Below are positions 23,089-49,413 of a DNA stretch of 64,000 nt, piece after piece. Position numbers and translations under genes: made by a program. Source of the DNA: Pseudomonas sp. R4-35-07. GTDB taxonomy: Bacteria; Pseudomonadota; Gammaproteobacteria; Pseudomonadales; Pseudomonadaceae. The DNA is taken from contig NZ_CP027732.1 of the NCBI RefSeq assembly GCF_003852235.1, positions 2,170,001-2,234,000 of the forward strand, written 5' to 3'. The notes beneath the pieces were generated by a model. It ran no database searches. It was not told where the DNA came from and worked only from the letters and a program-made list of their open reading frames with translations. Each line of letters opens with the position of its first letter. Positions within the stretch are counted from its first letter, which is position 1.

Positions 23089-23122
23089 CCGTTAGCCCGA
23101 ATCGGCAAATAGATGAATCGGC
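23089..23122. promoter_or_regulatory. Candidate regulator site in the aminotransferase-araC divergent region
   Basis: CCGTTAGCCCGAATCGG at 23089-23105 matches 15 of 17 bases of a motif in the 28-kb permease/efflux intergenic region. A second partial copy, GAATCGGC, follows 16 bp later (23099-23106 and 23115-23122), making a direct repeat of the kind AraC proteins bind. It lies between the divergent operon and the AraC start. Confidence 0.5.
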
Positions 23123-23241
23123 CGTCCGCAGTTTTCGACAAAGGGGATTTGAGAAGAAATTTCGCGGGATTTGAACTTTGTGCGAATATCGCAAAGGAAT
23201 GCGAACTAAAAACAAAAATTGGCAGAGGCTTTTCGCACATC

Positions 23242-28265: not shown

Positions 28266-29714
28266 ATGAGTCTATCTATCCCGGTCAACAGCTCCACGGA
28301 GCTCAAGCGTGGCGCCTTGGGTGTCGGCTTTATCATCTTCTTCGTGATTTCGGCGGCGAGTCCGCTCAGCGTCATCGCAGGAGGATTCCCGATTGGCATC
28401 ATGCTGGGCAATGGTGCCGGTACCCCGGCGTTGTTGTTGCTCGCCTTGCTGGTGCTGGTGGCGTTCTCGGTCGGCTACACCACCATGGCTCGCCACGTCA
28501 CCAACGCCGGTGGTTTCTACGCCTTTACCTCGCGTGGCTTGGGTGGCCTGGCCGGAGGGGCGGCGGGTGTGCTGGCGATGTTTGCCTATAACATCCTGCA
28601 AGTTGGCCTCTATGGCATGTTCGGTGGTGTGGTCAGTGGCACCATGGAGAGCGTGTACGGCTTGGTGTTGCCCTGGTGGTCCTACTCGCTGATGGCGATG
28701 GTCAGCATCGCGATCCTCGGCTATCGCAAGATCGATCTGTCGGCCCGCGTATTGTCGGTGGTGGTGATTGCCGAATACCTGGCGATCCTGACCCTGGATG
28801 TCGCGATTCTCAAGACCGGCGGCGACAGCGGTGTCAATCTCGACTCCTTCACCAGCCGGCACGTGTTCAGCGGTACTCCGTCGATCGGCCTGCTGTTCTG
28901 CTTCGCGGCCTTTATCGGCTTCGAGGCCACTACGATTTACGGCGAAGAAGCGAAAAACCCACACCGCACCATTCCGATTGCCACCTACAGCTCCGTGCTG
29001 CTGATCGGCGGGTTCTACGCGCTGTCAGTCTGGTCGATGGTGGTGGGCGTAGGATCGGATAAAATCGTGCCGATGCTGCAAGCCTTGCAGGACCCGACCA
29101 CCTTCATCTACGGCATGTCGGACCACTTTGTCGGCCCCTATCTGACGCAAATTATCCGCGTGCTGTTCATGGTCAGCATCTACGCCGGGCTGCTGGCGTT
29201 TCATAACGCCGCGGCACGCTATTTCTACGCCATCGGCCGGGACGGTCTGCTGCACAGTTTGCTGGGTACCACCCACCGTGTGCACCAAAGCCCGCATATG
29301 GGTTCGGCGTTGCAAAGTCTGATCGCCGCAGTCGTGGTGCTGATCTTCGCCGCCATGGATGCGGATCCGATCCTGCAACTGTTCGCCTGGTTCTCCAACC
29401 TCGCCACGCTGTGCGTCATTTTGCTCATGGCGATGACTTCGATCTCGGTGTGTGTGTATTTCCACCGGCATCCCGAACTCAACGTCGGCATCTGGCGGGG
29501 GCGTATTCTGCCGATTTTCTCCTGCCTGGCCTTGCTGATGGTGCTGGTGCTGGCGGTGGTGCATTTCGATGTGCTTACCGGCGCGAGCCAGCTCTTGTCC
29601 TACGCCTTATGCGCAGTCATTCCAGCGGCGCTGCTGGGCGGGGTTTTTCTCGCCGCGCGACTGCGCAAGGTATCGCCGCAGCGTTTTCTGGCGCTGGGCA
29701 GCCACAAACTCTGA
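28266..29714 (+). CDS. APC-family amino acid/amine permease
   Basis: 482 aa with 12 membrane helices. The APC signature is in the first helix (FFVISAASPLSVIAGGFPIGIMLGNGAG) and GFEATTIYGEEAKNPHRTIP is the conserved cytoplasmic loop. It takes up an amino acid or polyamine-like compound by proton or cation symport. AAGG precedes the ATG. It is followed by an aldehyde dehydrogenase and an outer-membrane channel in the same direction, so the three genes together could import and oxidise the same substrate. Confidence 0.92.
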   Translation: MSLSIPVNSSTELKRGALGVGFIIFFVISAASPLSVIAGGFPIGIMLGNGAGTPALLLLALLVLVAFSVGYTTMARHVTNAGGFYAFTSRGLGGLAGGAAGVLAMFAYNILQVGLYGMFGGVVSGTMESVYGLVLPWWSYSLMAMVSIAILGYRKIDLSARVLSVVVIAEYLAILTLDVAILKTGGDSGVNLDSFTSRHVFSGTPSIGLLFCFAAFIGFEATTIYGEEAKNPHRTIPIATYSSVLLIGGFYALSVWSMVVGVGSDKIVPMLQALQDPTTFIYGMSDHFVGPYLTQIIRVLFMVSIYAGLLAFHNAAARYFYAIGRDGLLHSLLGTTHRVHQSPHMGSALQSLIAAVVVLIFAAMDADPILQLFAWFSNLATLCVILLMAMTSISVCVYFHRHPELNVGIWRGRILPIFSCLALLMVLVLAVVHFDVLTGASQLLSYALCAVIPAALLGGVFLAARLRKVSPQRFLALGSHKL

Positions 29715-29811: not shown

Positions 29812-31233
29812 ATGCACCACTACAAGATGCTTATCAATGGGGTTCAGGTTGCCGGTGAAAACGGACAGTTCGAGGTGATCAATCCGGCCACCGGCGCCGC
29901 ATTTGCCCAATGCCCGGCCGGCTCGCTGGCTCAACTGGACGATGCGGTGGCCGCCGCCCAGGCGGCTTTCAAGGAATGGCGTCATGTTTCGCATGCTCAG
30001 CGCTGCGAGCGTCTGTTGGCGATTGCCGAGGATATCGAGCAGGGCGCCGATGAGTTGGCCCGGTTGATCGTGCGCGAACAAGGTAAGCCGCTGGAGCTGG
30101 CATTTTCCGAAGTCATGGGCGCCGCCGCCTGGACCCGCTATGCCGCCGAACAGCAGATTGGCGTGGAACTGGTGGAAGAAACCCCGACCCAGCGCATTGA
30201 GCTGCACCGCAAACCCTTGGGTGTGGTGGCTTCCATCACTCCGTGGAACTGGCCGTTCATGATCGCCGTGTGGCACATCATGCCGGCACTGCGCGCCGGC
30301 AACTGCGTGATCAGCAAACCGTCGAGCCTGACGCCGCTGAGCACCCTGCGCCTGGTGGAAATCATTGCGCGGCATGTGCCCAACGGTGTGATCAACTGCG
30401 TGACCGGCGAGCAGGGGTTCGGCAGTGCGATCACCTCGCACCCGGGGATCCAGAAAATTGTCTTCACCGGTTCCACCGCCACCGGCCAGAGCGTAATGCG
30501 CGGCGCGGCCACCAATCTCAAGCGCCTGACCCTTGAACTGGGCGGCAACGACGCCGCGATCGTATTGCCCAGCACCCCGGTGGAGGAGGTGGCCGAGGAG
30601 ATTTTTCAGGCCGCCTTCCTCAACATGGGCCAGACCTGCGCTGCGCTCAAGCGTTTGTACATTCACGAATCCCAGTACCAGGCCTTTGCCGATGCGCTCA
30701 CGCTAATTGCTGAACGCCAGGTGGTGGGTGATGGCTTGGAGCCCGGCGTCAACTTTGGGCCGGTGCAGAACCTCGATCAATTGCAACTGGTTGAAGCCTT
30801 GGTCGCCGATGCACGGGCCCAGGGCGCACGGGTGTTGTGCGGCGGCGCACGTCTGGACCGTCCTGGGTTCTTTTATCCGCCTACGTTGGTCGCGGATGTG
30901 ACCGACGGCCAGCGTCTGGTGGACGAGGAGCAATTCGGACCAGTGCTGCCGCTGATCGCTTACAGCGACGTCGAGGATGTGCTGCGCCGTGCCAACGCCG
31001 GTGACATGGGCCTGGGCGGCTCGGTATGGGGACCGGAAGTCGAACAGGCCCAGGCCTTGGCCAGTCGCTTGGAAAGCGGCGTGGCCTGGGTCAACTGCCA
31101 CGCCCGGATCCAACCGAACACGCCGTTCGGCGGCAGCAAGATGTCCGGCTTCGGCGTCGAGTTCGGCCTTGAAGGTCTGTTGGAGTTCACCGGCCAGCAG
31201 TTGCTGTTCGTCAATAAGCGCGCGGGCGAGTAA
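29812..31233 (+). CDS. NAD(P)-dependent aldehyde dehydrogenase
   Basis: 473 aa ALDH. Catalytic Cys is in FLNMGQTCAALKRLYI and Glu in LTLELGGNDAAIVL; ITPWNWPFM and FTGSTATGQ are cofactor segments. The Asn after ELGG (usual Lys) and 'AALKR' after the catalytic Cys mark a subfamily different from the ALDH genes at 20.2 and 35.3 kb. GGAAG precedes the ATG. Substrate unknown; the permease upstream suggests an amine-derived aldehyde. Confidence 0.92.
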   Translation: MHHYKMLINGVQVAGENGQFEVINPATGAAFAQCPAGSLAQLDDAVAAAQAAFKEWRHVSHAQRCERLLAIAEDIEQGADELARLIVREQGKPLELAFSEVMGAAAWTRYAAEQQIGVELVEETPTQRIELHRKPLGVVASITPWNWPFMIAVWHIMPALRAGNCVISKPSSLTPLSTLRLVEIIARHVPNGVINCVTGEQGFGSAITSHPGIQKIVFTGSTATGQSVMRGAATNLKRLTLELGGNDAAIVLPSTPVEEVAEEIFQAAFLNMGQTCAALKRLYIHESQYQAFADALTLIAERQVVGDGLEPGVNFGPVQNLDQLQLVEALVADARAQGARVLCGGARLDRPGFFYPPTLVADVTDGQRLVDEEQFGPVLPLIAYSDVEDVLRRANAGDMGLGGSVWGPEVEQAQALASRLESGVAWVNCHARIQPNTPFGGSKMSGFGVEFGLEGLLEFTGQQLLFVNKRAGE

Positions 31234-31325: not shown

Positions 31326-32648
31326 ATGCGGTATCCCTCCACTTCATTTCTCAACGGTACATTGGCCTGTACCCTGACGCTCTGCGCCATCAGCCAGGCC
31401 CAGGCCTACGAGCTGTACAGCGATGAGAGCCGCCATTTCAACGCAGACATGACCGCCGTATTCGGTATGTTCAACAGCCGCAAGAACTATGACGGCACGT
31501 CGGGTGGCTCAACCTGGCGCGAAGGCTTTATCAAATACGGCTTGAGCGGCGACCAGTCCCTGGCGGGCAACGGCACCGCCTATGGTGCGTTCGCCCTGCT
31601 CAGCTCCGCCACTTGGGGCGACGGCGACCCGGCCGGCAACACTCTGGGCACCGAACGCACCACCAAAATCGAAGACGCTTACCTAGGGTGGCGCTCCGGC
31701 GATCTGTTCCCGGCATTGGGCCAGGACGGTGTGGATATTTCCGGTGGGCGCCAAGTGGTCAAGCTCGGCAGTGGCTTCCTGATCAACGACGACGGGCCGA
31801 ACCTGGGCAAGGGCCCGGCCGATGGCAAGCTGAACCGGGGCGGTGCTTACTACCTGGCGGCGCGCCATGCTTTCGATCAGACCGCGTTCCTGCGCTTGGG
31901 CGGCAAGGATGGCCTGCATGGCAGCCTGTTGTGGCTCAAGTCCGACAACCGCGCCCAGGCTGAAACCGAAGTGGCCGCCGGTACGCTCGATTACACCACC
32001 AAGCCCGGCACCCTGGGGTTGACCTGGGTGCGTGGCATTGATGTGAATGATCGCTGGGCGAGTGATTTTCAGCGCCAGCGCAAGGGTATGAATATCTATA
32101 GCGTGCGCGGCGAAGGCGATGCGGGCCTGCCGAACGTCAGCCTGGCATTCGAATACGCCTGGCAGGACAAAGACAGCGGACCGGAAAAAGCCTGGTACGG
32201 CGAAGCCGGTTATACCTTTGCCGATGTGGCCTGGGCACCGAAGGTTACCTATCGTTATGCCCGCTATTCACAAAAATGGGATTCGCTGTTTACAGGTCTG
32301 AGCTCCGGCTACGGCACCTGGCTGCAAGGCGAAGTCGCCGGCAACTATGCCGGGCCGTTCAACAGCAACACGCGCATCCAGCATGTGGGTCTCAAAGCCA
32401 CGCCGCTGGAAAACCTGACCCTGGGTGCGTTGTACTTCGACTTCGACACGCTGCGCAAAAGCGATGCGCTGAATCTCAGTGCGCGGGAGCTGGACCTGTA
32501 CGCCGAGTGGGCCGTCAACCCACACTTGATCATCACGCCGCTGATCGGTCTCTACAAGCCAAAACAGGACTCCACTACGGGCGGAAACCAGGCTGTCGGC
32601 AATGGCACCAACCTATACAGCCAGGTGACCGTCGCCGTACCGTTCTGA
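31326..32648 (+). CDS. Outer-membrane beta-barrel channel
   Basis: 440 aa. A signal peptide (about residues 1-27, ending SQAQA) is followed by alternating amphipathic strands and a terminal Phe (VTVAVPF), the outer-membrane insertion signal. Sequence features (DGDPAGNTLGTERTTKIEDAYLGWRSGD, GGRQVVKLGSGFLI) are like alginate-export/AlgE-type or related substrate-specific channels rather than OprD. It probably lets the substrate of the upstream genes through the outer membrane. AAGGAG precedes the ATG. Confidence 0.82.
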   Translation: MRYPSTSFLNGTLACTLTLCAISQAQAYELYSDESRHFNADMTAVFGMFNSRKNYDGTSGGSTWREGFIKYGLSGDQSLAGNGTAYGAFALLSSATWGDGDPAGNTLGTERTTKIEDAYLGWRSGDLFPALGQDGVDISGGRQVVKLGSGFLINDDGPNLGKGPADGKLNRGGAYYLAARHAFDQTAFLRLGGKDGLHGSLLWLKSDNRAQAETEVAAGTLDYTTKPGTLGLTWVRGIDVNDRWASDFQRQRKGMNIYSVRGEGDAGLPNVSLAFEYAWQDKDSGPEKAWYGEAGYTFADVAWAPKVTYRYARYSQKWDSLFTGLSSGYGTWLQGEVAGNYAGPFNSNTRIQHVGLKATPLENLTLGALYFDFDTLRKSDALNLSARELDLYAEWAVNPHLIITPLIGLYKPKQDSTTGGNQAVGNGTNLYSQVTVAVPF

Positions 32649-32674: not shown

Positions 32675-33433
32675 TCAGGGCGCGGCGGCGCCCGGCTGAT
32701 TGCGCATGTTCTCGGCAATCCGTCGCGTGGTGTCCATCACCATCTCGATCACGGTTTCCTGGCGCAGCAGCCTGAAGCTTTGAGTACTGCCGACGGCGGA
32801 TAAGCTGCCCACCACTTCGTCCATATCCGGCTGGATGATCGGCGCCGCGATGCCGGTCAGGCCCAGGTTGAGTTCATCGTGGGTCAGGCAATAGCCGTCC
32901 TTGCGAATCTTCTTCGTGGCCTTTGCAAAGCTTGCCCAGTCAAAGGCACTTTCCGGGTCGCCGGCCATATGTTCTTCGAACAGGCGTTGCAAGCGCCGAC
33001 CTTTCTGATAGGCGATTAACACCTTGGATTGCGCACCGCGAAAAAACGGCAGCGGGTGCCCGCGCCCGAAGGAGAAGTGGTAAGTGTCAGTCGGTTCGGC
33101 GATGTAGGTGTTGATGATGCGCCCGTCATAGAAAACGCTGGCGAACACCGCAAGGCCGGTCTGCGTCGACAGTTCATGCATCAGTTCGCGCCCGGCGAGA
33201 AGGATGGGGTCGTACTGGCGCATCATCCAGTCCAGCTCGATCACGCGGGGCCCCAGGCCGTAACTGCCGGCGTCCACGCGCGTCAGCAGCCCGGCGTCAC
33301 ACAGGTCCTTGACGTAGCGATACGCCGTGGCGCGCGACAGGCTCATGCGCTCGGCGATGGTGTCCGGGTCGATCTTCAACGTCTGTGGACCGAACAGGTC
33401 CAGGACACTCAACAACTTACTCAGACTGCTCAT
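32675..33433 (-). CDS. IclR-family transcriptional regulator
   Basis: 252 aa. N-terminal winged helix (LLSVLDLFGPQTLKIDPDTIAERMSLSRATAYRYVKDLCDAGLL) and C-terminal IclR effector domain with FFRGAQSKVLIAY and LNLGLTGIAAPI. Divergent from the nine-gene operon that starts at 33725, so it is the likely local regulator, usually as repressor or effector-dependent activator. Convergent with the channel gene. The 290-bp region upstream holds a REP pair and nested inverted repeats. Confidence 0.92.
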   Translation of the reverse strand: MSSLSKLLSVLDLFGPQTLKIDPDTIAERMSLSRATAYRYVKDLCDAGLLTRVDAGSYGLGPRVIELDWMMRQYDPILLAGRELMHELSTQTGLAVFASVFYDGRIINTYIAEPTDTYHFSFGRGHPLPFFRGAQSKVLIAYQKGRRLQRLFEEHMAGDPESAFDWASFAKATKKIRKDGYCLTHDELNLGLTGIAAPIIQPDMDEVVGSLSAVGSTQSFRLLRQETVIEMVMDTTRRIAENMRNQPGAAAP

Positions 33434-33496: not shown

Positions 33497-33585
33497 TGTG
33501 GAGCGGGGCTTGCTCGCGAAAACGGTACTTCAGTGACGGCTGTGTGGACTGACATGCCGCTTTCGCGAGCAAGCCCGCCCCCACA
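33497..33585. repeat. REP pair (REPIN)
   Basis: Two inverted copies of a Pseudomonas REP element: GCTTGCTCGCGAA at 33508-33520 and TTCGCGAGCAAGC from 33562, with flanking GTGGAGCGGGG and GCCCGCCCCCACA. The arms enclose about 40 bp. This REP type is common in fluorescens-group genomes between genes and is spread by a RAYT transposase encoded elsewhere. Confidence 0.88.
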
Positions 33586-33623: not shown

Positions 33624-33659
33624 AATCTCAAAATAAGAGATTTAACTTAAATTAAATCT
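33624..33659. promoter_or_regulatory. Candidate IclR operator and promoter region
   Basis: Two overlapping inverted repeats sit in an AT-rich block 65-100 bp before the ThDP gene: AATCTC / GAGATT (33624-33629 with 33637-33642) and AGATTTA / TAAATCT (33638-33644 with 33653-33659). The place between the divergent IclR gene and its presumed target is typical of an IclR operator. Confidence 0.5.
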
Positions 33660-33724: not shown

Positions 33725-35266
33725 ATGAATGGCGCACAACTAATAGTGAATGCGGCAGCGGCAAGTGGTATCGAATACTGCTTCGCCAACCCGGGAACCA
33801 CCGAGATTCCGCTGGTGGCCGCCATGGCCAGTGCACCCGCCCTCAAGCCGGTGTTGTCGTTGTTCGAAGGGGTGTGCACCGGCGCGGCGGACGGTTACGG
33901 TCGTATCGCCGGCAAACCGGCAATGACCCTGACGCACCTGGGCCCGGGCTTTGCCAACGGCATCGCCAACCTGCACAACGCACGGCGCGCCAACACGCCC
34001 ATCGTCAATGTGATCGGCGACCACGCGTCATGGCACGTCAATTACGACCCGCCTTTGGCCAGCGACATCCAGGCCCTGGCCGGTACTGTTTCCGGTTGGG
34101 TACGCACCTCGCGCACCGCGTCCGGTGTGGGCGAGGACTTGCAGGAAGCCATGCGCGCCGCCTGGCAAGCCAAAGGCCAGATCGCCAGCTTGATCCTGCC
34201 CATGGACCTGCAATCCAATACGGCGACCCACAATGGGCAGTTCAGCCCGCTACGTGCGCCGGTCCGGCGCTTTGCCGGCGACCGTATCGAAGCCGTGGCC
34301 CAGGCGCTGCGCGATGGCCAGCGCCTGGTCTTCATCGTCGGTGACCAAGGCTTGTCAGTGGCCGGCCTGGAAGCGGCGGGGCGCCTGGCGCAACTGCCCG
34401 GCGTGCGGATGTTTGCCGAGACTTTCCCGCGCCTGAGCTACCGCGGCGGCGGCTTGCCCGACCTGGATCGCTTGCCGTATTTCCCGGAAGTGGCAATTGA
34501 GATCCTCGAGCAATACGACAAGGTTGTGTGCGCCGGTGTCGTGGAGCCCATCAGTTATTTCGGCTACGAAGGTATTCCGTCACGGTTGGCTGAGCGTGAG
34601 CGTCTGCTGTCGCTGGCCGAAGTGGGCGACGATGTGGCCGGGGCGCTGACCGCGCTGGCCGATGCGCTGGATGCGCCGGCCTATGTACCGACGCCGCAGG
34701 ACATCCAGCTGCCGCCGGGCGAGGCGGCTTTGAGCCCGCAGTCGGTGGGGCAAGTGTTGGCCGCCGCGCTGCCGGACGACTGCATTGTCTCGGTGGAGGG
34801 CGGCACCTGCGGCTATCCGTTTTTCACCGCTTCTGCCCGTGCCGCGCGGCACCGTGTATTGACCAATACCGGTGGCGCCATCGGCCAGGGCATTCCGGTG
34901 GGTTTTGGCGCCGCACTGGCCGAGCCTGGCAACCGGGTGTTTTGCCTGCAATCGGACGGCAGCGCCCAGTACACCATTCAGACCCTGTGGAGCATCGCCC
35001 GCGAGCAATTGCCGGTGGTGATCCTGATTGCCGCCAACCACCGCTACGCGATCCTGCAGAACGAACTGCGCCGTTTCGGCATGACCGAGCTCGACCCGCA
35101 GGCGCTCAAGCTGACCGTACTCGACAGTCCGCGTATCGATTGGAAGGCCCTGGCCAAAGGGTATGGCGTGCCGTCCTGCACCGTACACACCAACGCCGAA
35201 TTGCAACGGGCGCTGGCCAACGCCGCCGCCAATGCCGGGCCTTGCCTGATCGAAATGGCGCTGTGA
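33725..35266 (+). CDS. ThDP-dependent enzyme, acetolactate synthase large subunit-like
   Basis: 513 aa, three-domain thiamine diphosphate enzyme. Glu49 in SLFEGVCTGAADGYGRIAGKPA is the residue that activates the cofactor. The cofactor pyrophosphate motif, usually GDG...NN, reads SDGSAQYTIQTLW ... ANHRY. The family includes acetolactate synthase, benzoylformate decarboxylase and related C-C lyases; no IlvN-type small subunit is nearby, so a catabolic 2-keto acid decarboxylase or carboligase is more likely than valine synthesis. Start 33725 has GAGAGGG upstream. First gene of the operon. Confidence 0.88.
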   Translation: MNGAQLIVNAAAASGIEYCFANPGTTEIPLVAAMASAPALKPVLSLFEGVCTGAADGYGRIAGKPAMTLTHLGPGFANGIANLHNARRANTPIVNVIGDHASWHVNYDPPLASDIQALAGTVSGWVRTSRTASGVGEDLQEAMRAAWQAKGQIASLILPMDLQSNTATHNGQFSPLRAPVRRFAGDRIEAVAQALRDGQRLVFIVGDQGLSVAGLEAAGRLAQLPGVRMFAETFPRLSYRGGGLPDLDRLPYFPEVAIEILEQYDKVVCAGVVEPISYFGYEGIPSRLAERERLLSLAEVGDDVAGALTALADALDAPAYVPTPQDIQLPPGEAALSPQSVGQVLAAALPDDCIVSVEGGTCGYPFFTASARAARHRVLTNTGGAIGQGIPVGFGAALAEPGNRVFCLQSDGSAQYTIQTLWSIAREQLPVVILIAANHRYAILQNELRRFGMTELDPQALKLTVLDSPRIDWKALAKGYGVPSCTVHTNAELQRALANAAANAGPCLIEMAL

Positions 35267-35277
35267 AGGAGTCGACC

Positions 35278-36768
35278 ATGAACCTGCTCCAATTATTGCC
35301 TGCCGTCCAGGCGTTCCTGGACCAGCCCGGCCGCCTGTTTATCGGCGGTACCTGGCAGGACGCCGCCGGCGGTCGTCGCTTTGCCGTGGAAAATCCGGCC
35401 ACTGAACAGACCCTGACTGAAGTCGCCCAGGGCGATGAGCGCGATGTGAATGCGGCCGTGGCAGCTGCCCGCGCAGCCTTCACCGGCGCCTGGGCCTTGC
35501 AGTCACCGGCGCAGCGCGGTTTGTTGCTGTTTCGCCTCGCCGATCTGTTGGACCAGCACCGCGAGGAGCTGGCGCAACTGATCACCCTGGAGAACGGCAA
35601 GCCGATCGCCAATGCGCGCGGTGAAGCGGCCAGCGCGGCGAACATCATTCGCTACTTCGCCGGCTGGCCCACCAAGATCGAAGGCAGCACGCTGCCCGTC
35701 TCGCCGGCCAGCGGCGCGCCGATGCTCAACTACACCCTGCGCGAGCCGGTGGGCGTGTGTGCGCTGATCGTGCCGTGGAACTTCCCGTTGACCATGTGCG
35801 TGTGGAAGCTCGGTCCGGCGCTGGCCACCGGTTGCGTGGCGGTGCTCAAGCCCGCCGAGCAGACGCCGCTGGTGGCGATTCGTCTGGTGCAACTGATTGA
35901 AGCGGCAGGCTTCCCGGCGGGCGTGGTCAACCTGATCACCGGCCTGGGCGTCGACACCGGCGCGCCACTGGCGCAGCACCCGGACGTCGACAAGATCGCC
36001 TTCACCGGCTCGACCCAGGTCGGTCGGCTGATCGCCCAGGCCGCCACCGGCAACATGAAAAAGGTGTCCCTGGAGCTGGGCGGCAAATCGCCGAACATCA
36101 TCTTGCCCGACGCCGACATCGTGCGCGCCGCCAAGGGCGCCGCCGATGGGATTTTCTACAACCAGGGCCAGGTGTGCACGGCCGGTTCACGCCTGTATGT
36201 GCATGCCAGTGTGCTTGATCAGGTGCTCGAAGAACTGCAGCGTCATGCCGCCGCCCACGTACTCGGCGATGGCCTGGACCCGGCCAGCAGCATGGGCCCG
36301 CTGGTGTCCGCGCGGCAATTGAACACCGTCAAGGGTTACCTCCAGCGGGGCCAGGAAGAGGGCGCCGAACTGATCTGCGGCGGCGGCCGTCCCGAACACC
36401 TGGAGCGTGGTCACTTCATTGCTCCGAGCGTGTTTTTGGACCGCGCCGAGCGCGCCTGCGTGGCCCGCGAAGAAATCTTCGGCCCGGTGCTGACCGTGAT
36501 GGCCTGGACCGAAATCGACGAACTGGTGCTGCGCGCCAACGACTCGCCCTATGGCCTTGCCGCCGGCCTGTGGACCCGCGACCTGCGCTCGGCGCACCGC
36601 GTGGCCGCGCAGCTCAAGGCCGGCTCGGTATGGATCAATTGTTGGAACGTGGTCGATCCGGCCTCGCCGTTCGGCGGCTACAAGCAATCCGGCTGGGGCC
36701 GGGAAATGGGCAAGAACGTGATCGACGCCTACACCGAGACCAAAAGCGTCTTCGTCGATCTCGCCTGA
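35278..36768 (+). CDS. NAD(P)-dependent aldehyde dehydrogenase
   Basis: 496 aa ALDH with the complete motif set: IVPWNFPLTMCVWKLGPAL, FTGSTQVG, LELGGKSPN (Glu) and NQGQVCTAGSRL (Cys). It starts 11 bp after the ThDP gene, behind AAGGAG. A ThDP decarboxylase followed by an ALDH is the classic way to turn a 2-keto acid into the one-carbon-shorter acid (as in mandelate pathways). The actual substrate is unknown. The frame stays open upstream into the ThDP gene but the ATG with its ribosome binding site is clear. Confidence 0.93.
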   Translation: MNLLQLLPAVQAFLDQPGRLFIGGTWQDAAGGRRFAVENPATEQTLTEVAQGDERDVNAAVAAARAAFTGAWALQSPAQRGLLLFRLADLLDQHREELAQLITLENGKPIANARGEAASAANIIRYFAGWPTKIEGSTLPVSPASGAPMLNYTLREPVGVCALIVPWNFPLTMCVWKLGPALATGCVAVLKPAEQTPLVAIRLVQLIEAAGFPAGVVNLITGLGVDTGAPLAQHPDVDKIAFTGSTQVGRLIAQAATGNMKKVSLELGGKSPNIILPDADIVRAAKGAADGIFYNQGQVCTAGSRLYVHASVLDQVLEELQRHAAAHVLGDGLDPASSMGPLVSARQLNTVKGYLQRGQEEGAELICGGGRPEHLERGHFIAPSVFLDRAERACVAREEIFGPVLTVMAWTEIDELVLRANDSPYGLAAGLWTRDLRSAHRVAAQLKAGSVWINCWNVVDPASPFGGYKQSGWGREMGKNVIDAYTETKSVFVDLA

Positions 36769-36795
36769 ATCGAACAATCACAAGAGGAAATGGCA

Positions 36796-37590
36796 ATGGA
36801 TCTGGAATTGAAAGGCCGTGTGGCAATTGTGACCGGCGGCGGCATGGGCATCGGCAAGGAAGTCGCACGTTTTCTGTCCGAGGAAGGTTGCAAGGTGGTG
36901 ATCTGCGCGCGGCGCATGGCGTTCCTGCAACTGGCTGCCGAAGAGATCACGGCACAGACCGGTAATGAAGTGCTGCCGCTGTTCTGTGACACCAATGACA
37001 TGAAGGCCGTGTCGGAGATGGTCGATGCGGCGTACAAGCATTTCGGCCGCATCGACATCCTCGTCAACGGTGCTGCCGCGCCGTCTGGTGTGGTACGCAA
37101 TGACATCGAGCACGCCGGCGACGAGGAGTTGCTGTCGGACCTCAACACCAAGGTGATCGGCTACTTCCGTTGCGCCAAGGCCGTGACCCCGCACATGAAG
37201 GCTGCCGGCTTCGGTCGCATCATCAACATCGGCGGGCTCACCGGGCGCAGCAGCAAAGTGCTCTCGGGCATGCGCAACCTGGCGATTGCCCACATGACCA
37301 AAACCCTGTCCGACCAGCTCGGTCCGTCGGGCATCACGGTCAACCTGATTCACCCCGGCGTGGTGGATACCCCGCATATCCAGGAGCTGTACGAGCGCGA
37401 AGCGGTCAAGCAAGGCAAGACCGCGGAACAGGTTGAACAGGCCTACATCGACGCGACGCCGATTCGCCGCACCCTGGCACCGATCGAAATGGGCTGGCTG
37501 ATCGGCTTCCTGGCGTCGCCGAAGGCTGGCGCGGTAACCGGTGAGTCCATCGGCATCGACGGTGGTTTGACCCGTGGCATCTATATCTGA
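36796..37590 (+). CDS. SDR-fold protein lacking the catalytic triad
   Basis: 264 aa short-chain dehydrogenase/reductase fold. The cofactor glycine motif TGGGMGIG (residues 13-20) and the NGAA segment (91-94) are intact. The catalytic residues are not: the usual Ser is Gly (INIGGLTG), and the YxxxK positions read S157 and N161 in SGMRNLAIAHMTK. It may bind NAD(P) without standard reduction or use another mechanism. Start 36796 is preferred over 36790 because AGAGG is then 8 nt away. Fourteen bases further on the propeller gene follows. Confidence 0.88.
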   Translation: MDLELKGRVAIVTGGGMGIGKEVARFLSEEGCKVVICARRMAFLQLAAEEITAQTGNEVLPLFCDTNDMKAVSEMVDAAYKHFGRIDILVNGAAAPSGVVRNDIEHAGDEELLSDLNTKVIGYFRCAKAVTPHMKAAGFGRIINIGGLTGRSSKVLSGMRNLAIAHMTKTLSDQLGPSGITVNLIHPGVVDTPHIQELYEREAVKQGKTAEQVEQAYIDATPIRRTLAPIEMGWLIGFLASPKAGAVTGESIGIDGGLTRGIYI

Positions 37591-37602
37591 GGAGTATCAG
37601 AG

Positions 37603-38643
37603 ATGAGTAACGGAACCCTTTTAGTCGCCACCGTCGGGCAGGCGGTGATTCGCAGTGCCGACGATGGCAAGACCTGGCATCGTCTGGGCCTGGGGCAAGA
37701 CCTGGAATTCGACGCGATCACCCGCTCCTTGAGCGTGCATCCCGACACGCCCGAGCGAATCTATGCCGGCACCGACGTGGGCTTGTGTGTCAGCCACGAC
37801 ACCGGTGGGCACTGGCAGCGCGTCGATTCGCCGTTCAACGGCGAGACGGTGTGGAAGGTCGCGGTGGACCCGCAGGATGCCCAGCGGATCTTTGTCGGTA
37901 CCGGTGCGCCCTCGCGCGCTGTGCTGTGGCGCACCCTGGACGGCGGCCTGAGCTGGGATCGCGCGCCGGTGGAGATCCCGGAATTCTGCGACGGCGTCAG
38001 TCGCCCACGTTTGCTGGCCTTCGCCTACGACCCCACCGACCGCAATCAGGTGTGGTTCGGCCTGGAGGAGGGTGGGCTGTTCCATTCCCGCGACGGTGGC
38101 GACAGCTGGACTCGGGTTGATGACCGCCTGCTGTGGGACTTCAACTCGGATATCCACAACATCCTGGTGCTGCCCAACCATGGCGAAAAAGTCATCGTGG
38201 TGGTGTGCGTCAACGCGGTCTACCGCAGCCTTGATGAAGGCTTGACCTGGACCGGCATTGTTGGCCGGGAAGCGTTCGGCCTGTACTACATACGCGCCAT
38301 GAACGCGCCGCCGGGCACCGAGGACACGCTGTACCTGAGCATTTCCGACGGCACTCCCGGCACCACCAGCAAAATCCTGATTTCCCGTAACGCCGCCCTC
38401 AGTTGGGAGGTATTGCCGCTGCCGCAGCAACCCAACTCCTGCGTCTGGGCCATTGCCTTCAACCCGGCCAACCCGCGCCAGATCGTGGCGGGCACCAAGT
38501 ATGGGCACTTGTTCACTTCTGACAATGGCGGGGACGGCTGGCAGAAGCACTGGCGTGAATTCAGTGAGATCGCGGATGTGCTCTGGACGCCTGCCGTGGC
38601 GCAGATCAAGGCCGGGCATCAATCCATCGTCAAGAAAAACTGA
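37603..38643 (+). CDS. BNR/VPS10-type beta-propeller protein
   Basis: 346 aa without signal peptide, so cytosolic. At least five 'sialidase' Asp-box-like repeats are visible: SADDGKTW, SHDTGGHW, TLDGGLSW, SRDGGDSW, SLDEGLTW and SDNGGDGW. Each closes a blade, giving a six- or seven-bladed propeller. No sialidase catalytic residues are recognised. Related repeat proteins act as assembly factors, lactonases or binding scaffolds. Its conserved-looking place in an operon of metabolic enzymes suggests a catalytic or scaffold role in the pathway. Confidence 0.82.
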   Translation: MSNGTLLVATVGQAVIRSADDGKTWHRLGLGQDLEFDAITRSLSVHPDTPERIYAGTDVGLCVSHDTGGHWQRVDSPFNGETVWKVAVDPQDAQRIFVGTGAPSRAVLWRTLDGGLSWDRAPVEIPEFCDGVSRPRLLAFAYDPTDRNQVWFGLEEGGLFHSRDGGDSWTRVDDRLLWDFNSDIHNILVLPNHGEKVIVVVCVNAVYRSLDEGLTWTGIVGREAFGLYYIRAMNAPPGTEDTLYLSISDGTPGTTSKILISRNAALSWEVLPLPQQPNSCVWAIAFNPANPRQIVAGTKYGHLFTSDNGGDGWQKHWREFSEIADVLWTPAVAQIKAGHQSIVKKN

Positions 38644-38654
38644 GGAAATCGGTG

Positions 38655-39122
38655 ATGAAAGTCAAAATCCTTCGGACTCACTTATCGCTATTTGTGAGTG
38701 ATCCTGATGTGTCGGCGCGCTGGTATGCCGACATCCTGGGCATGCACGAAAGTGCCCGGGGCGAAAGCTGGGTCATGATGGCGTTTGGCACCAAACATCA
38801 CGACATCGCCTTGATTCGTGCAGAACCGGGCGCCCATCAGGGCGGCCTGGGCCTGCAGCACTACGGATTGGAAATCGAAGGTGACATGACCACCTTGCGC
38901 CAGCTCTACGGCATGTTGCTGAAGAAGGGGGTGGAGGTGGTGAAAATTACCGATCATGAAATCGGCAACGGCCTGTATTTCAACGACCCCGATTGCAATC
39001 GCATGGAATTCTTTCTCGAGACAGAGCATGACGATGCGTGCGGCAAGGCCCGCTTCAAGGCCGCCCGTGCGCCGAGTCGCAACATCACGCTTGACCCCCT
39101 TGACCCCCTTGACCCGATTTGA
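38655..39122 (+). CDS. VOC-family metalloprotein (dioxygenase/glyoxalase-like)
   Basis: 155 aa single vicinal-oxygen-chelate protein. Candidate metal ligands His9 (RTHLSLFV), His69 (LQHYGLEI) and Glu118 (NRMEFFLE) form the 2-His-1-carboxylate set seen in type I extradiol dioxygenases and glyoxalases. In an operon with a flavin hydroxylase and an MhpD-like enzyme, ring cleavage is the attractive role, but isomerase or lyase activity is equally possible. GAGGA precedes ATG 38655. The last residues, LDPLDPLDPI, come from a 9-bp tandem repeat. Confidence 0.87.
   Translation: MKVKILRTHLSLFVSDPDVSARWYADILGMHESARGESWVMMAFGTKHHDIALIRAEPGAHQGGLGLQHYGLEIEGDMTTLRQLYGMLLKKGVEVVKITDHEIGNGLYFNDPDCNRMEFFLETEHDDACGKARFKAARAPSRNITLDPLDPLDPI
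39090..39116 (+). repeat. 9-bp tandem repeat at the end of the VOC gene
   Basis: Three units of CTTGACCCC (the third ends in G) lie in frame just before the VOC stop codon and encode a repeated Leu-Asp-Pro tail. Copy number could vary by slippage between strains. Confidence 0.85.
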
Positions 39123-39137
39123 ACCGAGGTTCACCTG

Positions 39138-39740
39138 ATGAAAACCGCGAATTTTGCCAGCTATCACATCCGCAAATGGTACAGCTTCATCGAAGAAACC
39201 CTGGCCAACGAAAGTGGCCAACTGGCCGATGGCGAGCCGCTGTTCAAATACGCCGTGGCTGCCGTGATCGCCAACCCTTATGCCGGGCGCTACAGCGAGG
39301 ACCTCTCGCAATTGACTGAGCCGTCGCCGCTGCTGGGCGAAGAGTTCGGCCGGCGCATCAAGGCATTGGCCGGCGCACATGAAATTGTCAGCTATGGCAA
39401 GGCCATCCTGGTGGGCAGCGCGGGAGAATACGAGCACGGCAACGCGTTCCTCACCAACCCGGCCGCCGATCCGATCCGCGTCGCCCTGGGCGGTGGCAAG
39501 TCGTGGGTGCCCTCGACCGGCAAACGCGGCGGGCCGGGTTCGACCATCGACGTACCGCTGGCCCACAAAGACGCGCTGTACGTGCGTTCGCATTACGACA
39601 GCTTCTCCCTGACGTTCGGTGACGGCCCTTCGGCTGATGAGGTAGTGGTGATTTGGGCGTTCGCCACCCGCGGCCGTTTGCATGCGCGGTTGGGCGGCCT
39701 GAAGGCCGAGGATGTAAAAGGTATTGACGGGCTGCACTGA
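39138..39740 (+). CDS. Amino acid synthesis family protein (AA_synth, DUF1185)
   Basis: 200 aa. The text SAGEYEHGNAFLTNPAADPIR, WVPSTGKRGGPGSTIDVPLAHKDALYVRSHYD and ADEVVVIWAFATRGRLHARLGG matches what I recall of the PF06684 'AA_synth' family. Members have no settled biochemical activity. They occur beside flavin monooxygenases and hydrolases in catabolic clusters, as here. Fifteen bases after the VOC gene; clearly part of the same operon. Confidence 0.82.
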   Translation: MKTANFASYHIRKWYSFIEETLANESGQLADGEPLFKYAVAAVIANPYAGRYSEDLSQLTEPSPLLGEEFGRRIKALAGAHEIVSYGKAILVGSAGEYEHGNAFLTNPAADPIRVALGGGKSWVPSTGKRGGPGSTIDVPLAHKDALYVRSHYDSFSLTFGDGPSADEVVVIWAFATRGRLHARLGGLKAEDVKGIDGLH

Positions 39741-39800
39741 TAAAGGCGCAGCATCAAGCAGTATTGGATCAAAACCACAACAAGAAAGCGGTGAATAGCG

Positions 39801-41408
39801 ATGAAGCAGGAGAAGACCCAGGTTGTCATCGTGGGCGGTGGCCCCAATGGCATCACGGCCGCGCACTATATGGGAATGTACGGTATCGACTGCATCGTCC
39901 TTGAACTGGCCGACGGCATCCTGCCTTATCCCCGTGCCGTGGGCATGGACGATGAGGCATTGCGTGTGTTGCAGGGCATCGGTATCGCCGAACTGGCGGT
40001 ACGCGACATGATTTGCGATGTGCCGCTGCGCTACTACAACGCGCGCGGCGTGTGTTTCGCCGAGGTCAAGCCAAGTGCTGCCCACTACGGCTGGCCGATG
40101 CGCAATATTTTCATGCAGCAACTGCTCGAAGGCACCTTGCGTGAGCATCTCGGGCAGCGCGCCAGCGTCGAGTTGCGCCAGGGCCACGAACTGCTCGAAC
40201 TTGCGCAGGACGATCAGGGCGTGACCCTGCAGGTGCGCGGTGCCGACGGCGAGACCTACCAGCTTCAAGCCGACTACGTGATCGGTGCCGACGGCGGTCG
40301 CTCCACGGTGCGTAAAAAACTCGGTATCGAACTGCTGGGGCTGACCCATCCACGCAAATGGGTGGTGGTCGATACAGCCAACGACACGCTGGACGCACCC
40401 TACACCGCGTTGCATGCCGATCCGCAGCGGCCTTTCGTGTGCATCTATTTGCCGTACCAGCAGCGGCGCTGGGAATTCATGCTGATGGAGGGCGAGGACG
40501 AAGCGAAAATGTGCGAAGAGGCAACGATTCGCAAGCTGATCCACGGGCATATCGGCGATGCCGTAAACGACCTCAATGTCATTCGCATTCGTGCCTATAC
40601 CCACCACTCGCGCGTCGCGGCGCGCTTTGTCGAAGGGCGTGTGGCGCTGGTGGGTGATGCGGCGCATATTTCTCCGCCCTGGGCCGGGCAAGGCCTTAAT
40701 TCCGGCCTGCGCGATGTGGCCAACGTGGCCTGGAAGCTCGCGGCGATTATCCAGGGGCGTGCGGCGCCCTCGATCCTGGCCAGTTACGACCAGGAACGCC
40801 GTGGTCACGCCACTGAACTGGTAGCCCTGGCCGACAATATGGGCGCCGTCCTTGGCTTGACCAACCCGCTGATGGCAGGCGTGCGCGACTGGCTGTTCCA
40901 GGCAGTCAACAGCGTCGACAACCTGCGTTCGCACTTGCTGGAGTTCAAGTTCAAACCCAAGGCGACCATCACCAAAGGGCTGGTCTATCACGAGCGGGCC
41001 GAATTGCGTGAGGATGATCTAGTCGGGCAACTGTTCATCCAACCGAATATCGAAGATGCGCAAGGTCAGCGCCGGCGCCTGGACGAAGTCCTCGGCAACA
41101 GCTATGCCGTGCTGGGTTACCGCGTGAATCCGCGCGAGCACCTCAGCGAACCGATGGCGGATTATTGGGCACGTTGGGGCACCTGTTTCATCCAGGTCAA
41201 CCGGTCGCGCAGCGGCGTGGGCCGAAACCAGCCGTTGACGGCCAGCGACGCCGTGAGTGTGGAGGACGTGGATAACCGCCTGGGCGAATGGTTCTCCAAG
41301 GTGCGTGACTGCATCGTGGTGGTGCGTCCGGACCGATTTGTCGCGGCGATTACCACTCCGGAGCGGCTTGATGGCGTACTGCGCAAACTGGCGGAGCAAC
41401 TTTCATGA
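39801..41408 (+). CDS. FAD-dependent aromatic hydroxylase, MhpA-like
   Basis: 535 aa flavoprotein monooxygenase of the para-hydroxybenzoate hydroxylase class, closest in layout to MhpA (3-(3-hydroxyphenyl)propionate hydroxylase). Motifs: VVIVGGGPNGITAAHYMG (FAD, residues 8-25), DYVIGADGGRSTVRKKLGIE (NAD(P)H/FAD), and VALVGDAAHISPPWAGQGLNSGLRD. The C-terminal ~150 residues are the thioredoxin-like extension. Hydroxylates a phenolic or heteroaromatic ring using NAD(P)H and O2. This is the strongest hint that the operon handles an aromatic compound. Confidence 0.9.
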   Translation: MKQEKTQVVIVGGGPNGITAAHYMGMYGIDCIVLELADGILPYPRAVGMDDEALRVLQGIGIAELAVRDMICDVPLRYYNARGVCFAEVKPSAAHYGWPMRNIFMQQLLEGTLREHLGQRASVELRQGHELLELAQDDQGVTLQVRGADGETYQLQADYVIGADGGRSTVRKKLGIELLGLTHPRKWVVVDTANDTLDAPYTALHADPQRPFVCIYLPYQQRRWEFMLMEGEDEAKMCEEATIRKLIHGHIGDAVNDLNVIRIRAYTHHSRVAARFVEGRVALVGDAAHISPPWAGQGLNSGLRDVANVAWKLAAIIQGRAAPSILASYDQERRGHATELVALADNMGAVLGLTNPLMAGVRDWLFQAVNSVDNLRSHLLEFKFKPKATITKGLVYHERAELREDDLVGQLFIQPNIEDAQGQRRRLDEVLGNSYAVLGYRVNPREHLSEPMADYWARWGTCFIQVNRSRSGVGRNQPLTASDAVSVEDVDNRLGEWFSKVRDCIVVVRPDRFVAAITTPERLDGVLRKLAEQLS

Positions 41409-42184
41409 GTGGCGCCAACGCACTGCTCGGCCAACTGTACGAGGCCTGGCGCACCGCCCAGCCCATTGCACCGTTGCCGCCCGAGGCGCTGGACCGGCTG
41501 GAAGGCTACGGTCTGCAGCTTCAGGGGCTGGCACGGCGCCAGGCCGGCGGCGAGCGGCTGAGCGGTTGGAAGGTCGCCTTTGCAGGCCGCGCGGCGCAAG
41601 CGCGCTTTGGCCTCGACGAGCCGGTGTATGGCGGCCTCACGGCGGTCATGGAGGTCGAGCCGGGCAGCACGGTGTCATTTGAGCGGTTGATTCAGCCCAA
41701 GCTTGAGGTCGAACTGGCGTTTGTGTTCGGGCGCACGCTGGTAGCGGGCGACTACGGGGATGAGGAGATTCTGGCGGCCATCGCCGAGGTGGCGCCGGCG
41801 TTCGAGATCGCCGACTGTCGCTGGCAGGGCTGGCATTTCGGGCTTGGCGCGTTCCTGGCCGATAACGCCGCCGCGGCACTGTACTGTGTAGGGCAGCCTG
41901 TGCCGTTCGATCCTGTCCGGCATGCGTGCGTGGCGTATCACTTGGAGCATGAGGGTGTGTATCTGGGCAGCGGCGATACCCAGGACCGAGAAGACAGCCC
42001 CCTGTTCAACCTGTGCTGGCTGGTGCGGCGCTTGCTGGCCGATGGTCATCGCGTAGAGGCCGGGCAGGTGGTGCTTTCCGGTGCGCTACTGGCGCCGATG
42101 GATATTCACCCAGGCACTTATCATCTGCACATGCTTGGCACGGAACTGGCTTTGGTTTTCCAGGCGGACGTTGCGCCTGTGTAA
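41405..42184 (+). CDS. 2-keto-4-pentenoate hydratase/FAA-hydrolase family, MhpD-like
   Basis: 259 aa. The FAH/MhpD fold is shown by LSGWKVAFAGRAAQARFGLDEPVYG, LIQPKLEVELAFVFGR (metal-binding Glu pair), EVAPAFEIADCRW and the late GQVVLSGALLAPMDIHPG. Such enzymes hydrate or split products of meta ring cleavage. It overlaps the hydroxylase gene by ATGA, so both steps are made together. Last gene of the operon; the AraC gene begins 75 bp later. Confidence 0.9.
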   Translation: MSGANALLGQLYEAWRTAQPIAPLPPEALDRLEGYGLQLQGLARRQAGGERLSGWKVAFAGRAAQARFGLDEPVYGGLTAVMEVEPGSTVSFERLIQPKLEVELAFVFGRTLVAGDYGDEEILAAIAEVAPAFEIADCRWQGWHFGLGAFLADNAAAALYCVGQPVPFDPVRHACVAYHLEHEGVYLGSGDTQDREDSPLFNLCWLVRRLLADGHRVEAGQVVLSGALLAPMDIHPGTYHLHMLGTELALVFQADVAPV

Positions 42185-42259
42185 CGCCAACCGATGTCAC
42201 GGATGACTGAGCCACCTTCAGGCCAAAAGCAAGAACCCGGCCGCCGAGGAATGACGAAT

Positions 42260-43201
42260 ATGCTCGCTGAAGTCCGAACCTTCAATGACTCTCAACAGCA
42301 CGCCGGCTCGATCCAGGGTTGGCAGCAGGTCTATGACCAGCTCGGTCGCGGCTGCCTGACCAGTGAGCTGCGGCAACTGACCGGTGATCGCTTCCAGATC
42401 TTCCAGGAGGTGCTGGACAAGCGGGTGGTGCAGCATGGCCGTTCGCCCCAGGGCCGCTTGTGCGCAGCCATGTCACTGGGCAACCCTCCGGTGGTCCAGG
42501 GGCAACGGGTAAGCGCGCAAAGCGTGGTGCTGCTGCGTGATGCCGAAGAGTTCGTGCTGCATGCGCCGCAAGGCACGCATTTTTTTGCATTCAACGTCGA
42601 TGCCGTGCGTTTCGCCAAACTGGCGGCTTTCGAGTTATCCAATGATCAGCTCAAGCGTTTGACCAGCGTGCCCGCGCTTAACGTGGATGAACCGTCACTG
42701 CTGCGCATTCGTCAGCGCATTCACCTATTGTTTCGTCACTTTCTGGAACACGCGGACGCCATCAGCCCGGCGTCGGAAAAAATCCTGGAAGATGAGCTGC
42801 TCGGTGCGTTCCTCGATCTGTTCACCCACGCAGGCGACGAAGTGCGTGGCCGGCGTGGCAATTTCGCGGTCAGCGCCTATTTGGTCAGACGCAGCCAGGA
42901 ATTGATCATTGCTAGTGGCGATACCCCGCTGAGCATCCTGGACCTTTGCGAGCAGTTGCGCGTCAGTCGCAGAACCCTGCAGAACAGTTTTCAGGCAGTG
43001 ACCGGTATGCGGCCAGTAGAGTACTTGCGCAATTTGCGTCTCAACGCGGTCAGGCGACGCCTGATCGCAACCTGCCCGAGCAAGAAAAACGTCGGTGAAA
43101 TCGCCGTGGCCATGGGTTTTTTTCACCTGAGCCATTTCGCCACGCATTACCGCGAGCTGTTCGGCGAATCGCCGTCGGAAACGCGCAGGTCACCGCGCTG
43201 A
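42260..43201 (+). CDS. AraC-family transcriptional regulator
   Basis: 313 aa. C-terminal AraC DNA-binding domain: ILDLCEQLRVSRRTLQNSFQAVTGMRPVEYLRNLRLNAVRRRL and VGEIAVAMGFFHLSHFATHYRELFGESPS. The N-terminal effector domain is similar along its length to the AraC protein at 23.2 kb. Start 42260 is chosen because GAGGA ends 9 nt upstream; ATG 42251 directly abuts it. It lies after the catabolic operon in the same direction and ends 12 bp inside the convergent membrane-protein gene. Confidence 0.88.
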   Translation: MLAEVRTFNDSQQHAGSIQGWQQVYDQLGRGCLTSELRQLTGDRFQIFQEVLDKRVVQHGRSPQGRLCAAMSLGNPPVVQGQRVSAQSVVLLRDAEEFVLHAPQGTHFFAFNVDAVRFAKLAAFELSNDQLKRLTSVPALNVDEPSLLRIRQRIHLLFRHFLEHADAISPASEKILEDELLGAFLDLFTHAGDEVRGRRGNFAVSAYLVRRSQELIIASGDTPLSILDLCEQLRVSRRTLQNSFQAVTGMRPVEYLRNLRLNAVRRRLIATCPSKKNVGEIAVAMGFFHLSHFATHYRELFGESPSETRRSPR

Positions 43202-47577: not shown

Positions 47578-47652
47578 AGCACCTTCAAGTGGAGACATCC
47601 GGGAATAATCACGCATTTATCGCGCCAGTACGTGCGCGCGGAATGCACCGTG

Positions 47653-49355: not shown

Positions 49356-49413
49356 CCCGTTACGTGGCTGTGCGCGTGCGCGGCTGACCTTAATTGCTTA
49401 TCGAGTCTTGATC

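Follow-up and report, generated by a model that had tools for sequence, protein, structure and literature searches.

We identified in Pseudomonas sp. R4-35-07 a group of genes that may together encode a dispersed ring-hydroxylation and ring-cleavage pathway for an aromatic acid, amine-fed in this lineage, rather than a single nine-gene operon; our confidence in this interpretation is about evenly balanced. The genes are found in a stretch of 64,000 nucleotides (contig NZ_CP027732.1, positions 2,170,001 to 2,234,000 of the forward strand; hereafter the window, in whose own numbering coordinates are given), which is part of one 5.84 Mb Pseudomonas chromosome. Central to the proposal are an operon headed by a gene for a thiamine diphosphate (ThDP)-dependent enzyme and an alpha/beta hydrolase gene located outside it:

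32675..33433, - strand: IclR-family regulator, divergent from the operon (Pfam/NCBIfam; relative in 62/74 loci)
33624..33642, no strand: palindrome AATCTC-N7-GAGATT, candidate IclR operator (conserved upstream stretches)
33725..35266, + strand: ThDP-dependent enzyme, NCBIfam PRK07586 (closest solved structures, benzoylformate decarboxylases)
35272..36768, + strand: aldehyde dehydrogenase, ALDH (nearest solved structure, phenylacetaldehyde dehydrogenase)
36790..37590, + strand: SDR dehydrogenase (Pfam/NCBIfam)
37603..38643, + strand: BNR-type beta-propeller, role unassigned (Pfam; closest solved structure 3b7f)
38652..39122, + strand: single-domain VOC protein, putative extradiol-type dioxygenase (invariant H10/H70/E119 and H50/H102/Y109)
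39138..39740, + strand: AA_synth protein (PF06684, formerly DUF1185; Pfam)
39801..41408, + strand: MhpA-like FAD aromatic hydroxylase (Pfam/NCBIfam)
41405..42184, + strand: MhpD/FAA-hydrolase-superfamily hydratase-like protein, not core (weak models, locus counts)
42194..43201, + strand: AraC regulator, EutR/AndR-like, below cut-offs (NCBIfam)
50744..51586, + strand: alpha/beta hydrolase, counterpart of an in-operon hydrolase elsewhere (homology, Pfam, co-occurrence)

All eight catabolic genes and the AraC gene are on the + strand between 33725 and 43201 in the list of open reading frames (ORFs). The largest intergenic gap, 60 bp, separates AA_synth from the MhpA-like gene, and the MhpA-like and MhpD-like genes overlap by 4 bases. 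With IclR and AraC counted, 9 of the 10 proteins exceeded a Pfam cut-off with some domain. The ThDP ORF as listed extends back to a GTG at 33668, and its start is most likely the ATG at 33725. Coordinates and domains thus bear out the first-pass annotation, which had proposed a one-strand operon with gaps of 60 bp or less, an IclR gene before it and an AraC gene after it. Its view that the eight genes are the full set is not supported, as the alpha/beta hydrolase lies outside them and amine genes co-occur with that hydrolase.

The same gene order was sought in other genomes. Relatives were found with one query protein only, AA_synth, searched against a genome-contig collection covering 84,980 species; this gave 179 relatives, of which the best-scoring 80 loci were kept. 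Genes in the high-GC loci were longest-ORF calls, some of them shadow ORFs. The genes for the ThDP enzyme, SDR, propeller, VOC protein, AA_synth and MhpA-like protein were present in the same order and on the same strand in 74 of the 80 loci, which rules out a chance cluster and also one confined to this strain, a condition that the first-pass annotation had set for its own refutation. Across these 74, the lowest identities ranged from 47% (propeller, MhpA-like) to 66% (AA_synth), and the hosts included Pseudomonas, Acinetobacter, Marinomonas, Vibrio, Nitrincola, Burkholderia, Pandoraea and Streptomyces. Six loci were exceptions: L011, L030 and L073 are contig ends, a partial duplicate confuses the order in L058, L059 has only the propeller, AA_synth and hydrolase, and in L060 AA_synth occurs within a different aromatic cluster. 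An ALDH gene was located between ThDP and SDR in 58 of the 74 loci; the 16 without ALDH at this position were all betaproteobacterial. A match to the MhpD-like protein followed the MhpA-like gene in 49/74 loci and none was found in 25/74, so that this gene, previously counted with the others, is not a core member.

Two of the exceptional loci have features of their own. In Marinobacterium ramblicola (L058, 15190-18402), a second, partial copy of the operon containing propeller, VOC and MhpA-like genes lies directly behind the first. The Sphingomonadaceae cluster (L060, 1855-12746) holds, besides the AA_synth gene (72% identity), genes recognised by eye as C-C-hydrolase-like, two-domain-dioxygenase-like, Rieske oxygenase, carboxymuconolactone-decarboxylase-like (two) and UbiX-like.

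The component missing from the operon in the window is an alpha/beta hydrolase of ~280 residues, which was located between AA_synth and the MhpA-like gene in 63 of the 77 loci having both neighbours. The 14 loci without it at this position are relatives of the window species, with 64-163 bp between AA_synth and MhpA-like; in 5 of these 14 (L015-L019), the hydrolase follows at some distance downstream within the locus. The window genome contains one strong homolog (67% identity, at about 50744-51586), the last gene of an operon composed of an ornithine cyclodeaminase/mu-crystallin-like gene (OCD), RidA, an amino-acid-oxidase-like gene and the hydrolase. We further checked 149 Pseudomonas genomes (VOC at E 1e-20, hydrolase at E 1e-60), which comprised 17 VOC-bearing and 132 other genomes. 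VOC and hydrolase occurred in the identical 17 genomes, with one hydrolase match each (Fisher p about 1e-22; in this and other Fisher tests and in the promoter counts below, genomes or stretches are related and kinship is uncorrected). The hydrolase was beside VOC in the operon in 9/17 genomes and behind OCD in 8/17, including the window genome; in P. marginalis, where roughly 130 kb of one contig separate OCD from the operon, the hydrolase adjoins OCD. Co-occurrence with VOC together with these two positions indicates that the hydrolase is part of the pathway although it lies outside the interval first annotated. The direction in which it moved between the operon and the OCD site is something that we can only infer.

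Several protein features are consistent with ring hydroxylation and ring cleavage. Six VOC residues (H10, H50, H70, H102, Y109 and E119) were invariant across 31 aligned sequences, and five of them (H50, H70, H102, Y109, E119) aligned with His, His, His, Tyr and Glu, respectively, of the second domain of catechol 2,3-dioxygenase 5zsz. The residue set of type I extradiol dioxygenases (2-His-1-Glu plus His/His/Tyr) is present in VOC, a protein of 156 residues and not a two-domain chain of about 300 residues as in such enzymes; single-domain type I extradiol dioxygenases exist. In the structure search, a VOC-type homogentisate dioxygenase (9u42) ranked 10th and homoprotocatechuate 2,3-dioxygenases appeared from rank 40. 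These conserved residues and the model favour VOC as a dioxygenase and make it likely as the ring-opening step, as first suggested, even though the alignment with the catechol 2,3-dioxygenase site is weak. The MhpA-like protein was over the NF004831 cut-off (773 vs 546 bits). The MhpD-like protein fell short of its Pfam cut-off (19.5 vs 23.9 bits); among NCBIfam models it matched 2-oxopent-4-enoate hydratase best, again below cut-off (116 vs 409 bits).

The propeller and the DUF1185 (AA_synth) protein, which had been described as new parts, are conserved parts without an assigned role. The propeller model had a predicted local distance difference test score (pLDDT) of 89, and its nearest structure, 3b7f, is named 'putative glycosyl hydrolase'. 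AA_synth scored 214 bits against PF06684 (cut-off 27) and has the structural relatives 2qtp and 3byq; passages of the AA_synth structure paper suggest amino-acid metabolism from fold and genome context (PMC2954203). A second PF06684 gene (238 bits) is present in the window genome on contig 1 at 2491830-2492360, and a weak relative of the alpha/beta hydrolase adjoins it at 2490966.

With regard to the lower part of the pathway, we detected no match in the window genome to HpaI (TIGR02311, E 1e-80) or to the MhpE 4-hydroxy-2-oxovalerate aldolase (TIGR03217, E 1e-100). With these thresholds, HpaI was found in 10/17 VOC-bearing genomes (9 of them over the family cut-off) and an MhpE-type aldolase in 2/17 VOC-bearing vs 42/132 other Pseudomonas genomes; neither was found in 5/17 VOC-bearing genomes (G000, which is the window genome, G029, G034, G149 and G175), which argues that the ordinary hydratase-aldolase ending is not obligatory. 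An ordinary mhp lower route is not supported in the window genome at these thresholds. An ordinary mhp or hpa ending as its sole lower route was rejected because no aldolase was found at these thresholds, below which diverged ones are possible. Either the ring-fission product is processed to the end by the SDR, ThDP enzyme and ALDH, or hydrolysis ends the route as drawn for the hcd cluster discussed below.

The genes that would supply the amine-derived acid, together with a neighbouring porin-like gene, are as follows:

19498..20061, - strand: cytochrome b561-like protein, encoded third in the AmT3 module (named by eye; start by eye from translation)
20160..21656, - strand: aldehyde dehydrogenase ALDH20 (best models phenylacetaldehyde dehydrogenases, cut-off not reached)
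21653..23029, - strand: class-III aminotransferase AmT3 (co-occurrence with the operon)
23113..24204, + strand: AraC regulator, EutR-like, below cut-off, divergent from AmT3
28266..29714, + strand: APC amino-acid/amine permease, probably for uptake (relatives of 45-91% identity in 6 other loci)
29812..31233, + strand: aldehyde dehydrogenase ALDHup (several marine genomes likewise have it close to the operon)
31326..32648, + strand: outer-membrane porin-like protein (25.6 bits against Pfam Alginate_exp, which has a cut-off of 25.2)
46747..47616, - strand: AraC-type regulator, divergent from the second, OCD operon (other genomes have relatives next to that operon)
47760..48899, + strand: OCD (NCBIfam NF004848, 'tyramine oxidase subunit B')
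48933..49355, + strand: RidA-family protein (TIGR00004, below cut-off)
49408..50706, + strand: FAD-dependent amino-acid-oxidase-like protein, DAO (NCBIfam ThiO/SoxB-type models, below cut-offs)

AmT3 was present in 16/17 VOC-bearing vs 0/132 other Pseudomonas genomes; it was on another contig than the operon in 3 of these 16, and 772 kb away in one. OCD, which passed the 'tyramine oxidase subunit B' model NF004848 with 722 bits (cut-off 362), was present in 12/17 vs 9/132 genomes, and a PRK07481 aminotransferase, which in several loci has ALDHup or the porin gene in its vicinity, in 8/17 vs 5/132. All 17 VOC-bearing genomes carry OCD or the PRK07481 aminotransferase. Outside the genus sample, AmT3 was searched at E 1e-90 in 22 other cluster-bearing genomes and found in 3, all of them Burkholderiales with AmT3 on the contig of the cluster and with ALDH20 (76-79% identity) and b561 relatives (56-57%) nearby.

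Some further features are adjacent to these modules. In Burkholderiales loci L143-L147, genes for DUF1329-, DUF1302- and MMPL/RND-exporter-like proteins (by eye) are situated between ALDH20 and AmT3 and are perhaps involved in substrate transport. Next to the tyramine-oxidase-like module of L131 (12599-14919) is a gene that by eye resembles a kinase, paired with an aminotransferase whose match to PRK06148 is below cut-off; the pair is reminiscent of amino-alcohol phospholyase systems. In the window, ParA-, ParB-, topoisomerase III- and single-strand-binding-like genes (by eye) occupy 8333-19180 on the minus strand, suggesting an integrated conjugative element that ends just beside the AmT3 module.

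Gene content and order, conservation, co-occurrence, the two hydrolase positions and the conserved residues are what the sequences show directly. Which reactions take place, in which order and on which substrate is what we infer from these genes. The core (ThDP enzyme, SDR, propeller, VOC, AA_synth, hydrolase, MhpA-like protein and usually at least one aldehyde dehydrogenase) would degrade an aromatic acid, whose ring may be hydroxylated by the MhpA-like flavoprotein and opened by VOC as an extradiol-type dioxygenase, the ring-fission product then being cleaved by the alpha/beta hydrolase. A hydroxy- or keto-acid piece would be converted to an aldehyde and then an acid by the SDR, ThDP enzyme and aldehyde dehydrogenase, either before ring cleavage, on a mandelate-like side chain, or after it, as a substitute for the absent aldolase. 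The aromatic acid that enters the pathway would in this lineage be derived from an amine through uptake by the APC permease, deamination by AmT3 or by OCD/RidA/DAO, and oxidation by ALDH20 or ALDHup. The most specific guess at the substrate, a hydroxylated aryl-ethylamine or aryl-ethanolamine of the tyramine or octopamine type, is more doubtful than the pathway itself. Also tentative, if slightly less so, is the idea of a new aerobic ring-cleavage pathway of Proteobacteria and Streptomyces, in which the ring-opening enzyme is a single-domain extradiol dioxygenase, a ThDP decarboxylase and an aldehyde dehydrogenase, helped by the cytosolic BNR propeller and AA_synth, replace the hydratase/aldolase ending, and exchangeable amine-deaminating modules feed the route.

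The operon is probably controlled by IclR through a conserved palindrome. Read as ATCTCA-N5-TGAGAT, the candidate operator occupies 33625-33641 with one mismatch, 99 bp before the ThDP gene. Sites were counted in 44 of the 48 loci L006-L053 (L009, L011, L030 and L041 were dropped). The best site scored at least 8 of 10 in 42/44 orthologous upstream stretches and at least 9 in 26/44, compared with 548/4400 and 42/4400 Markov-shuffled controls; stretches taken at random from the loci, with a lower AT content, reached a score of 8 in 119/2200. The 42 sites were found at -97 to -104 (23), at -32 to -48 (17) and elsewhere (2). Because the upstream stretches are related, this conservation is support and not proof. 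Exact palindromes were rare in the fetched loci (7/147 for one form, 3/147 for the other); Pseudomaricurvus has a second exact copy between IclR and ALDHup. No convincing second copy was found in the window, where the one two-mismatch match, inside an MFS gene at 26972, is at chance level. The IclR-ThDP intergenic region also contains, at 33500-33585, an imperfect inverted repeat, GCGGGGCTTGCTCGCGAAA / TTTCGCGAGCAAGCCCG, which by eye is similar to repetitive extragenic palindromic (REP) elements and whose columns are unconserved in aligned orthologues.

A number of observations weigh against an amine-fed ring-cleavage pathway. With regard to ring cleavage, the alignment of VOC with the second domain of 5zsz is not significant by itself (6.4 bits, i-Evalue 78), and the roles of H10/H70/E119 as the 2-His-1-Glu metal site and of H50/H102/Y109 as catalytic residues are ones that we presume. 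The AlphaFold model of VOC (pLDDT 88) has a VOC fold whose top structural matches were integron-cassette and fosfomycin-resistance proteins. In comparison with benzoylformate decarboxylase chains, the ThDP protein keeps one His and has Thr at the Ser and Phe at the second His, Ser/His/His being what we take to be the catalytic residues and wild-type letters; the printed chains carry Tyr where the ThDP protein has Phe. Novosphingobium (L136) contains most of the gene set with no MhpA-like match within 12 kb of the AA_synth gene. As for the amine, the 17 VOC-bearing genomes are related, so that the p-values overstate independence, and NCBIfam family names such as that of OCD are annotations and not tests. 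OCD occurs in 9 Pseudomonas genomes without the operon. Among 28 cluster-bearing genomes, OCD was strong in only 10, with weak relatives in 15 (a group including P. corrugata, P. brassicacearum, P. citronellolis, P. otitidis, Burkholderia and Streptomyces) and none in 3, among which are both Acinetobacter genomes. AmT3 had no match at E 1e-90 in 19 of the 22 other cluster-bearing genomes; P. citronellolis, outside the 149-genome sample, has the operon, weak OCD relatives and no AmT3 match, and two Acinetobacter genomes have the operon with neither an OCD nor an AmT3 match. AmT3 and OCD could serve amines unrelated to the operon. Since both are patchy outside the Pseudomonas sample, we conclude that the core acts on an acid and that individual lineages have added amine feeders; amine feeding is at best lineage-specific.

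The two Acinetobacter genomes would fit a mandelate-type route, in which an aromatic keto or hydroxy acid is taken up as such, no amine step is involved and the amine genes merely share genomes with the operon. The ThDP protein is nearest to benzoylformate decarboxylases and the ALDH to phenylacetaldehyde dehydrogenase among solved structures, and TRAP-type and TctABC-type (by eye) transporters, typical for organic acids, are located beside marine copies. We consider this route unlikely given the hydrolase in the OCD operon of 8/17 genomes and the distribution of AmT3 (16/17 vs 0/132). The first-pass annotation had proposed an undescribed route for an aromatic keto or hydroxy acid; the operon does appear to be undescribed, whereas for the starting compound an amine is likelier in this lineage, though the core may take such an acid.

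The hydrolase also matched alpha-(N-acetylaminomethylene)succinic acid hydrolase (3kxp, E 1.2e-20), pointing to an N-heteroaromatic, pyridine-type route modelled on the vitamin B6 and trigonelline pathways, in which the flavoprotein would open a hydroxypyridine-like ring and the hydrolase would free succinic semialdehyde for oxidation by a succinic semialdehyde dehydrogenase (SSADH)-like gene product. Loci from Oceanospirillales, Acinetobacter and Burkholderiales have an SSADH-like gene after MhpA, and the AA_synth relative TgnF is described, in passages of one paper, as stimulating succinic semialdehyde oxidation in trigonelline breakdown (PMC7913881). However, the hydrolase has better matches than 3kxp in 3bwx and 7c4d, the VOC residues align with catechol 2,3-dioxygenase and the operon in the window contains no SSADH-like gene, which leaves such a route quite improbable. 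Specific substrates, namely histamine, tryptamine, vitamin B6, mycosporine-like compounds and flavonoids, were also considered, and no gene evidence favoured any one of them. Polyamine degradation, considered for genes upstream in Burkholderia pyrrocinia, was dropped; by eye, those genes were not recognised upstream in L066, another Burkholderia locus.

A meta pathway of the homoprotocatechuate type, in which substituted enzymes would break down tyramine or dopamine, is still less probable. The MhpD-like protein reached 105 bits against the HpaH model, short of the cut-off of 352, hpa-like genes (by eye) are near the cluster in Marinomonas (in M. piezotolerans they end about 9 kb from the ThDP gene) and several loci have an SSADH-like gene, but this pathway is at odds with the aldolase results for the five VOC-bearing genomes described above, the window genome among them, and it leaves the ThDP enzyme, SDR, propeller and AA_synth unexplained. 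Equally improbable is an operon that would cleave no ring and would modify a non-aromatic or polyketide-like compound, with VOC as an isomerase or lyase: integron-cassette VOC proteins and FosA/FosB topped the structure search and a Pfam scan of the operon found no LigB-type or two-domain dioxygenase, whereas H50/H102/Y109 are invariant beside the presumed metal triad and the MhpA-like protein exceeds its NCBIfam cut-off.

The locus is of interest in several respects. It is common to soil, plant-associated and marine bacteria and Streptomyces, suggesting a common natural compound of uncharted fate; the two hydrolase positions and the co-occurring aminotransferase narrow the candidate substrates to amine-derived aromatics; and the roles of AA_synth and the propeller could be approached through this locus. 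A second possible catabolic locus was observed in the window at 53848-62096, with genes for an SMP-30-like protein, an NMT1-type binding protein and ABC parts, an OprD porin, two Amidohydro_2 proteins and an IclR regulator.

The locus is of a known general kind of catabolic locus, with an unusual enzyme set that is apparently undescribed: among the open-access matches listed, no description of the cluster or of its substrate was recognised, subscription papers being mostly outside the scope of that search. The mandelate pathway is similar in having a ThDP enzyme followed by an aromatic-type ALDH, in agreement with the nearest solved structures. It differs in that the ThDP protein scored below the benzoylformate decarboxylase model NF005485 (179 vs 493 bits), passing PRK07586 instead as well as NF005760, 'acetolactate synthase large subunit' (669 vs 363 bits), and in that ring genes share the operon here. 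The mhp pathway is similar in the MhpA-like protein over its cut-off and in the hydratase-like and alpha/beta-hydrolase genes; unlike it, the operon lacks an MhpB-type dioxygenase and the window genome has no MhpE-type match at E 1e-100. In the trigonelline pathway, the ring-opening enzymes are of a different kind. In the tgn system of Acinetobacter baylyi, as covered in passages of the hcd paper, TgnF is homologous to HcdD and works with the succinic-semialdehyde-oxidising TgnE; according to the same passages, its effect on succinic semialdehyde oxidation was not reproduced with HcdD (PMC7913881). The hcd cluster for 7-hydroxycoumarin in Pseudomonas mandelii 7HK4, which we liken to the present locus by description only, has the hydroxylase HcdA, the dioxygenase HcdB, the putative hydrolase HcdC and the AA_synth-family protein HcdD in one induced locus, and its route as drawn yields succinate and a hydroxy-oxo-pentenoate; its text has no mention of thiamine, and the passages at hand name no propeller, SDR or amine genes (PMC7913881). 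Finally, the tyramine oxidase module (NF004848) is similar in combining an OCD protein over its cut-off with RidA and FAD-oxidase genes, to which the operon in the window adds the alpha/beta hydrolase of the proposed pathway.

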